64,000 nucleotides of DNA, from assembly GCF_000024425.1 (NCBI RefSeq), contig NC_013946.1, positions 1 through 64,000 on the forward strand. The letters are read 5' to 3'. The position numbers and the translations under genes are program-made. The notes beneath the pieces are model-generated. The model was not told the DNA's origin and searched no databases. It saw nothing but the letters and a program-made list of their open reading frames with translations. This document shows, in pieces, positions 1,357 to 12,694 of this stretch. This DNA comes from Meiothermus ruber DSM 1279. Its GTDB lineage: Bacteria; Deinococcota; Deinococci; Deinococcales; Thermaceae. Position 1 is the stretch's first letter, and each line of letters opens with the position of its first letter.

Positions 1357-1700
1357 GTTAGCCAACTGCTTCTCGTATCGGCTGGGTAATTAAATAACAT
1401 AATCACCAGGCCTGGAACTGTGGATAAATTAATTAGCCCTGTGGATAACTCTGTGGATAACTTGTGGATAACCCTGTGGATAGACCTGTGGATAAGTGCG
1501 TCTACGCCGAGCCTGTGGATAAGTGCCCTGTTTTTCCACAGCTTGTCCACAGGTTATGCACAATTTTCCACACCTTTTATCCACAGGCCAAATTCGATAC
1601 CCATGCGGGTTTAGAAGCCCTTATCCACATATCCACAGCCCCTACTACTACTACTACTGATTTTAAAAATTTTTAAGAGAAGTAGGATTCTTAAATTTCA
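1357..1700. other. oriC: Chromosomal origin oriC
   Basis: This is the origin between dnaA and dnaN. Boxes reading TGTGGATAA lie at 1419, 1440, 1452, 1463, 1487 and 1514, with a one-mismatch copy at 1475. The polarity then reverses: TTATCCACA at 1577 and 1621, with close variants at 1532, 1543, 1554, 1564 and 1629. The boxes lead into a trinucleotide run and an AT-rich tract. The rest of the gap up to dnaN (1701-1861) shows nothing I can name apart from the dnaN ribosome site GGAGG at 1852. Confidence 0.95.
1621..1690 (+). other. Origin unwinding element with DnaA-trios
   Basis: Two overlapping DnaA boxes (TTATCCACA at 1621 and ATATCCACA at 1629) are followed by a short GC spacer, five perfect CTA triplets (1642-1656) and then TTTTAAAAATTTTTAA (1661-1676). 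Box, GC spacer, trio run and AT tract in this order match the basal unwinding system described for Bacillus subtilis, where the DnaA filament extends along the trios. I infer that strand opening starts here. Confidence 0.85.
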
Positions 1701-11427: not shown

Positions 11428-11833
11428 ATACTACCCCCACCCGCCCCCGCCCGACACCCGTTACAAAGAGCGTAAACCCCGCCCAACCCGCCAAAAATGC
11501 CTGCGCGATCGCACCCCACCTCACACAAAACCCAACCCGAAGCCAGTCCAGCACAGCACGGAAACCCTTTCACCAAATAACCCATTATGTTTTGCGCAAA
11601 ATGCTATAATACTTTCGTCGAGCAATTCGACAGCGCACTTTGAAAGCCAGGTTTTGCGATGAATAAGGCAAACCCACGCCACAAAAAATCTAAAAGTGCG
11701 GGAAAGTAAGCCCTCATCGCAAAAAACGCACTTTTTACCCCAGTTATCCACAGGGGGGCTGTGGATAACTCCAGTTTCTCATAAATACCCCCTCCAGCAC
11801 CCCTGTACAGCACGGTGTTTAACGGGGTATGCT
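11428..11833 (+). promoter_or_regulatory. Gene-free region and presumed CRISPR leader
   Basis: These 406 bases lack a credible gene. The first 150 are C-rich and form the upstream region of the prenyl synthase gene. From about 11570 the sequence becomes AT-richer. An extended -10 promoter is visible (TGCTATAAT, 11602-11610). Nested inverted repeats follow: TTTTGCGATGA at 11652 with TCATCGCAAAA at 11714, and AAAAGTGCG at 11692 with CGCACTTTT at 11727. A DnaA-box palindrome lies at 11742-11770. The side opposite the degenerate CRISPR repeat is normally the leader, which places it here. Confidence 0.6.
11742..11770. repeat. Perfect inverted pair of DnaA boxes
   Basis: AGTTATCCACAG (11742-11753) and CTGTGGATAACT (11759-11770) are perfect reverse complements around GGGGG. 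Each arm contains a consensus DnaA box (TTATCCACA at 11744, TGTGGATAA at 11760). Outside oriC I did not find another such pair in the window. It could bind DnaA as a regulatory or titration site, or act as a hairpin; no T-run follows, so it is not an intrinsic terminator. Confidence 0.85.
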
Positions 11834-12306
11834 GTTGCAAACAAAAAGCCCCGTAAGGGGATTGAAACGCATCCATCACGCCCAACTTGTTGATTTCGAT
11901 TTGCACTAGTTGCAAACAAAAAGCCCCGTAAGGGGATTGAAACGAATTGCAGGTGAAGCCTGTGTACTTTGGCGACCTTTTGGGGTTGCAAACAAAAAGC
12001 CCCGTAAGGGGATTGAAACGATGGTTAGCAGCGCCAGGCGAATATTACACTATGGCACGAGTTGCAAACAAAAAGCCCCGTAAGGGGATTGAAACGTGGC
12101 GTGAACGCGTTTGCACGTGCCCTTGGTTCCGTTGCAAACAAAAAGCCCCGTAAGGGGATTGAAACAGATAACGCAGTTTGCTCTTCATATCTCCTTCCTC
12201 CTGTTGCAAACAAAAAGCCCCGTAAGGGGATTGAAACGCCAGCCCGCCTGCTCGCCGCTTGCTGCTGCCAGGTTGCAAACAAAAAGCCCCGTAAGGGGAT
12301 TAGAGT
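11834..12306 (+). CRISPR. Orphan CRISPR array, 7 repeats and 6 spacers
   Basis: Seven 35-base repeats starting GTTGCAAAC and ending ATTGAAAC begin at 11834, 11909, 11985, 12061, 12131, 12203 and 12272. The six spacers are 40, 41, 41, 35, 37 and 34 bases. The first six repeats are identical; the seventh loses its last bases (TAGAGT instead of TGAAAC), which marks the trailer end, so the leader is on the left and transcription runs rightward. The repeat contains a CCCC-GTAA-GGGG hairpin, and its last eight bases match the 5' handle left by Cas6 in type I/III systems. No cas gene lies within the window. Confidence 0.97.
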
Positions 12307-12400
12307 CACTCCCAAATGGCTGCCTTGGTGAGCTCGGCTGCTGTTTGGGGATTTGGCTTTATTACCAACAAAGCTTCTAAAAATGGAGTAAGTTTTAAAA

Positions 12401-12694
12401 ATGGCAAAATTGGTTCGGAAATACAACCCCTACACAAATAAATTCGAGATGGTTCCAGAAGACTGGGTTTTGCGGTACAACCCTTTCCAAAACCGCCACG
12501 AGTTTGCCCCAGCGGACAACAGGTTCTCGTATCTGCCAACCAACGGCGAGTTTTCGGCCATTCCTGCGCCGCCGAAATACAACCCGCACCAGGAGACCTT
12601 TTCTCCCGGCAAGCGGGACTGAGAGCCGGTGTACAACCCGCTCGAGGGCGAGTTTGAAATACGGCCAACAAAAAAGGACGACCCCGAGTGGTGA
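12401..12694 (+). pseudogene. YNP-repeat protein gene interrupted by an in-frame TGA
   Basis: The frame encodes a hydrophilic protein built from about five degenerate repeats of the type Y-N-P-x4-F-x3-P: KYNPYTNKFEMVP, RYNPFQNRHEFAP, SYLPTNGEFSAIP, KYNPHQETFSP and, after the stop, VYNPLEGEFEIRP. Translation stops at TGA 12620-12622 after 73 residues, but the same frame continues to TGA 12692 with another full repeat. In the second repeat a Trp sits four residues before the Tyr (DWVLRYNP); the TGA occupies exactly that place (D-stop-EPVYNP), so a TGG to TGA change is likely. The function is unknown. It lies just after the CRISPR trailer. Confidence 0.65.

Follow-up and report, generated by a model that had tools for sequence, protein, structure and literature searches.

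A perfect palindrome of two facing DnaA boxes in Meiothermus ruber is, judging from its conservation in relatives, probably a conserved binding site for a DnaA pair in a type III CRISPR leader. There is strong support for counting the DnaA sites as genuine leader elements, since their position is fixed and their bases are frozen whereas the rest of the leader has diverged.

The window, that is, the whole stretch of DNA analysed, comprises the first 64 kb of the single 3,097,457-bp contig of M. ruber. The palindrome reads AGTTATCCACAG-GGGGG-CTGTGGATAACT, with both arms perfect, and ends 63 bp before the first repeat, or 65 bp when the distance is counted from the end of the 9-mer, as it is in all comparisons below. 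A sequence-only reading had placed two consensus DnaA boxes, facing each other in 12-bp perfect arms, at this distance from the repeat and about 10 kb from oriC; the coordinates match, and the last exact oriC box of the window ends at 1629. The window contains 10 exact boxes, compared with 0.22 expected from shuffles, and both boxes of the palindrome are the exact 9-mer of M. ruber's own oriC.

Table 1 Features of the M. ruber window around oriC and the first CRISPR array.
Feature	Position	Strand	Remarks
dnaA	16..1356	+	sole M. ruber gene with the DnaA-box-binding domain (PF08299)
oriC-side cluster	1419..1629	.	8 exact DnaA boxes (same 9-mer)
Conserved leader	11500..11833	+	near-identical to G000:C1 about 198,990-199,327
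Putative -10 TATAAT	11605..11610	+	139 bp upstream of palindrome
Hairpin just 3' of -10	11617..11631	+	arms covary among relatives; positive control for RNA structure
boxA-like motif CTTTGAAAGCC	11638..11648	+	kept also in Thermus, Marinithermus-like and Truepera genomes
Perfect palindrome	11742..11770	.	12-bp arms and 5-nt centre; RNA fold -18.4 kcal/mol, z -2.3
DnaA box 1	11744..11752	+	TTATCCACA, exact consensus; kept in 46 leaders
DnaA box 2	11760..11768	-	TTATCCACA on minus strand, faces box 1 over 7-nt gap
Leader segment, palindrome to first repeat	11771..11833	+	contains TTTCTCATAAA and a conserved GACGG-type motif
CRISPR array	11834..12306	+	six intact 35-nt repeats and a seventh, degenerate (from about 12272)

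The whole M. ruber genome contains 32 exact boxes (reversed control pattern, 7), with 10 of the 32 at oriC and 4 in two CRISPR leaders. Inverted pairs with a gap of 2-24 nt occur three times: in the window leader, in a second CRISPR leader (199239) and in the oriC flank (3097422). The only two short-gap pairs outside oriC are therefore both in CRISPR leaders, and the random scatter of similar palindromes that would have spoken against the sequence-only reading was not found genome-wide. Closeness to oriC, which had been part of that reading, was ruled out as an explanation because copies of the pair sit far from oriC, one near 199 kb in M. ruber itself and others in relatives. Apart from the pairs, three tandem exact boxes lie in an intergenic region (G000:C1:3045320-3045361; L035:9321-9362), preceding a 156-aa ORF, which has no Pfam hit, and a RidA-family gene.

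The second copy of the palindrome, located by a whole-genome search for the extended palindrome, occupies 199237-199264 and has a gap shorter by one base. Its leader is nearly identical to the first over roughly 330 bp upstream up to the repeat, and fronts a single repeat without spacers. HMM searches identified cas10, csm2, csm3, csm4, csm5, cas6, a csx1/csm6-like gene and cas1 upstream; after cas1 come cas2, recognised by eye and interrupted by an in-frame stop, and another csx1. By its gene content this locus is type III-A. The stop in cas2 (G000:C1 about 198677-198955; L002:941-1216) reads ..QLKQLL*KKLEL.., and the second array consists of one repeat with no spacer; adaptation may have been lost in this M. 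ruber strain.

The inverted pair (gap 2-24 nt) was present in 37 of 111 Deinococcota genomes, and its reversed control pattern gave no match in the 111 genomes searched. We took 40 stretches around short-gap sites for comparison, most of which lie 65 bp from a CRISPR array or a solo repeat. In the Meiothermus group, 36 of the 39 short-gap exact pairs are in leaders (one, at a contig end, was judged by its leader sequence); the three others are a site in G033 and the orthologous sites of G025 and G026, which, read by eye, appear to be thymidine phosphorylase coding sequence. Because this first set of leaders was chosen by its boxes, we built a palindrome-free model (R1) from the palindrome-to-repeat stretch and the repeat of 26 sequences and searched it against the 111 genomes. 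R1 recovered the same leaders and two more in the Meiothermus group, at G024:C5 and G028:C39, whose box 2 differs at a single base (GGTGGATAA and TGTGAATAA, plus strand). All full Meiothermus-group leaders adjoining an intact repeat carry the pair, these two with the one changed base.

R1 also matched two more arrays in the Marinithermus-like genome G009 (2,269,167 bp), where box 1 is CTATCCACA, and arrays in the Truepera-like genome G108 (3,260,398 bp). A pattern combining the boxes with the repeat end identified five leaders in G108 and one in the Truepera-like G095, and in four of the five G108 leaders (L157-L159) a third exact box lies 32 bp upstream of the pair. A scan for occurrences outside the phylum, restricted to repeats ending GGATTGNAAC, returned 13 Deinococcota leaders and two other sites without a CRISPR array (L187 and L188); the scan is not exhaustive and missed the T. 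radiovictrix-like and M. hydrothermalis-like leaders.

Counting pairs with up to one mismatch, there are 46 pair-bearing leaders, representing 35 distinct sites, in Meiothermus, Calidithermus and genomes resembling Allomeiothermus, Marinithermus and Truepera. The box-to-repeat distance is 61-66 bp in all 46 of them (65-66 in the Meiothermus group, 61-62 in the Marinithermus-like and Truepera genomes). Thus relatives do keep the palindrome upstream of homologous arrays. Between families (Meiothermus, Marinithermus-like and Truepera), the compared leaders agree in 18 of 18 box bases, whereas the remaining leader is 38-47% identical, about the level obtained by aligning unrelated sequence. The gap between the boxes ranges from 6 to 10 nt across leaders; two proteins bound to them would thus not keep a rigid arrangement in common.

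DnaA probably occupies the palindrome. The same TTATCCACA 9-mer is found at oriC in M. ruber, Thermus, Truepera-like and Marinithermus-like genomes, and each of the 21 genomes tested encodes exactly one PF08299 protein, DnaA. We therefore take DnaA as the reader of the 9-mer, which is the genome's own oriC box and has DnaA as its sole PF08299 candidate.

What the bound protein would do there is suggested by the spacing. Across families the palindrome-to-repeat distance is 61-66 bp, while the distance to the -10 candidate is 108-140 bp, the candidates in distant leaders being guesses, and that to the boxA-like motif is 67-106 bp. Both kinds of distance are fixed within the Meiothermus group, so the comparison rests on three lineages. 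The spacing seems to be tied more to the repeat than to the promoter, which favours a role at the leader-repeat junction, and for this reason we lean to spacer integration over transcription control. DnaA bends DNA, and the most likely single role, which we hold tentatively, is that of a host architectural factor for spacer integration at the first repeat. Bound about six helical turns before the leader-repeat junction, a DnaA pair would bend the leader, so that Cas1-Cas2 would be guided to integrate new spacers at the first repeat. DnaA would in this way take the part of IHF, which serves types I-E and I-F; folding of the leader by IHF for integration is described for type I-F (PMC12259127). 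The M. ruber genome encodes one HU/IHF-family (PF00216) protein, and a single such protein cannot form an IHF heterodimer. It is conceivable, though we are doubtful, that DnaA is a required host factor of CRISPR adaptation that replaces IHF in the type III systems of Meiothermus, Marinithermus and Truepera, in which case acquisition would follow the level or state of DnaA and hence replication status.

A serious possibility is that the DnaA pair mainly controls transcription of the array, acting in the transcribed leader as a roadblock, an attenuator or an antitermination-linked switch. The TATAAT is conserved throughout the Meiothermus group and is followed by the covarying hairpin and by the CTTTGAAAGCC motif, which is boxA-like; because these elements precede the palindrome, the palindrome is probably transcribed. 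Lying about 140 bp downstream of the putative promoter, it could allow bound DnaA to slow or gate RNA polymerase. However, the promoter-to-palindrome distance shifts across families and the palindrome-to-repeat distance hardly does; the promoter is only putative, and a simple promoter scan gave no call at the TATAAT. In either role, integration or transcription, DnaA would make the array sensitive to its own amount or state. Two further features of this region were seen. The hairpin and the boxA-like motif after it (11617-11648), present also in Thermus and Truepera leaders, look like an antitermination signal of the rRNA type, and a conserved palindrome, TTTTGCGCAAAA, at 11590-11601 directly upstream of the TATAAT in the Meiothermus group is a possible operator.

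It is unlikely that some other protein, such as Cas1-Cas2, a CARF regulator or another Cas-linked factor, is the reader of a palindrome whose identity with a DnaA box is accidental. Cas2 does contact inverted repeats in type I-F leaders (PMC12259127), and many dimeric regulators bind inverted repeats. However, the half-site here is the exact 9-mer that is repeated in the oriC of the same genomes, and the variable gaps misfit a rigid dimer.

A role of the palindrome as an RNA hairpin or DNA cruciform, with the match to DnaA boxes incidental, had also been raised by the sequence-only reading, and the perfect arms and the predicted RNA fold (Table 1) would suit it. We consider it quite improbable. 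Of nine arm pairs at each of the 35 distinct sites, 4 of 315 are broken and none is compensated; RNAalifold on 21 leaders likewise gave no compensated pair in the palindrome stem. The flanking base on each side is mostly kept, but further out the arm pairing drops towards chance. The four changes, which all break pairing, give the variant boxes CTATCCACA (twice), TTATTCACA and TTATCCACC; three of the four presumably fall within published relaxed DnaA-box consensuses and the fourth is a near match. In contrast, the hairpin after the putative -10 is kept in most of the same leaders with differing arms (GTCGAG/TTCGAC, GCCGGG/CCCGGT, GTTGGA/TCCAAC, GCTAGA/TCTAGC, ACCCGG/CCGGGT and CGTCACG/CGTGACG; best stem per sequence, some of them weak). 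The arms of the palindrome are thus uncompensated where another hairpin of the same leaders covaries freely, and selection therefore acts on the 9-mer sequence and not on a hairpin. No terminator-like site was detected in 11430-12420 and no U-run follows the palindrome stem, so it is not an intrinsic terminator, and it would take a large coincidence for a hairpin to match the consensus DnaA 9-mer exactly. On the uncompensated arms, the missing U-run and the covarying control hairpin, we ruled out a hairpin, cruciform or terminator as the main function.

Still less probable is that the pair chiefly titrates DnaA and is in CRISPR leaders by accident. The Truepera-like G108, with 14 of its 41 exact boxes in five CRISPR leaders, would fit titration. 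However, most Meiothermus genomes have 2-6 sites of only two boxes each, the M. ruber leaders hold only 4 of the 32 exact boxes, and a fixed distance to the repeat would be needless. A datA-like cluster of several boxes at one locus is not what was found: the leaders have two boxes, or three in most Truepera leaders. That the palindrome is a functionless remnant of a recently copied leader, as the near-identity of M. ruber's two leaders might suggest, is hardly credible, because the boxes do not vary even between leaders that otherwise share 38-47% identity, a pattern that already contradicts it, and the segment is gone from relic leaders.

These relic leaders (L139 and L140, in G043:C24) lie by degenerate solo repeats and have lost both the DnaA palindrome and the CTCATAAA segment. 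In Thermus, about 28 leaders (g4 and g5) can be aligned with the M. ruber leader, and over the 300 bp upstream none of them has a box, even with one mismatch allowed. They share with M. ruber the promoter, the hairpin, the boxA-like motif, TTTCTCAYAAA and a related repeat, but have no DnaA boxes and carry a different conserved segment there. This segment (L143-L173 and L176), around GTTATTCGCC..TGCATATTCCAAGCTTCATC, takes the palindrome's place and is perhaps the site of another factor. Thermus oriC keeps 10-11 exact TTATCCACA boxes, so a shift in DnaA specificity does not account for the loss. Since Thermus type III arrays, although box-less, acquire spacers (PMC7515739), the pair is not generally needed for type III adaptation, and its loss in Thermus offers a natural comparison. 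The pair was also not found in two leaders of genus g14, of the same family as the Marinithermus-like G009. In the Meiothermus group, the G035 array showed no box in the only about 96 bp before its contig end, and the arrays of G041 and G042 are cut by contig ends.

Full-text literature searches returned no paper joining DnaA with CRISPR leaders; two surveys of CRISPR leader motifs were outside their scope, one of which reportedly sorts motifs according to taxon and subtype and may include the palindrome motif. A host-factor site in a CRISPR leader is of a known kind; DnaA as the host factor is unexpected, its novelty being unconfirmed. The finding bears on two questions, the way in which Cas1-Cas2 locates the leader where IHF is lacking and the regulation of type III arrays. 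With a frozen DnaA site at a set distance from the first repeat, one host factor becomes a candidate. The conserved pair points to a connection, so far unsuspected, of CRISPR immunity with the control of replication; if this is true, the replication initiator would be coupled to adaptive immunity.

Among known systems, DnaA regulates operators outside oriC, at dnaA, nrd, mioC and others. These resemble the leader site in having consensus boxes near a promoter that are kept by selection; in M. ruber, however, they would act on a CRISPR array, and their spacing follows the repeat more than the promoter. The datA and DARS loci of E. coli are non-origin clusters of DnaA boxes and so are alike in lying outside the origin, whereas the M. 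ruber sites consist of two facing boxes only and occur in several copies per genome, each at an array. The closest functional parallel may be the IHF site of type I-E and I-F leaders, where Cas1-Cas2 is directed to the first repeat by a host DNA-bending protein that binds the leader at a fixed position (I-F: PMC12259127); M. ruber differs in having a DnaA-box pair, a type III-A system and a single HU/IHF-family protein, and its role in adaptation is one that we infer.
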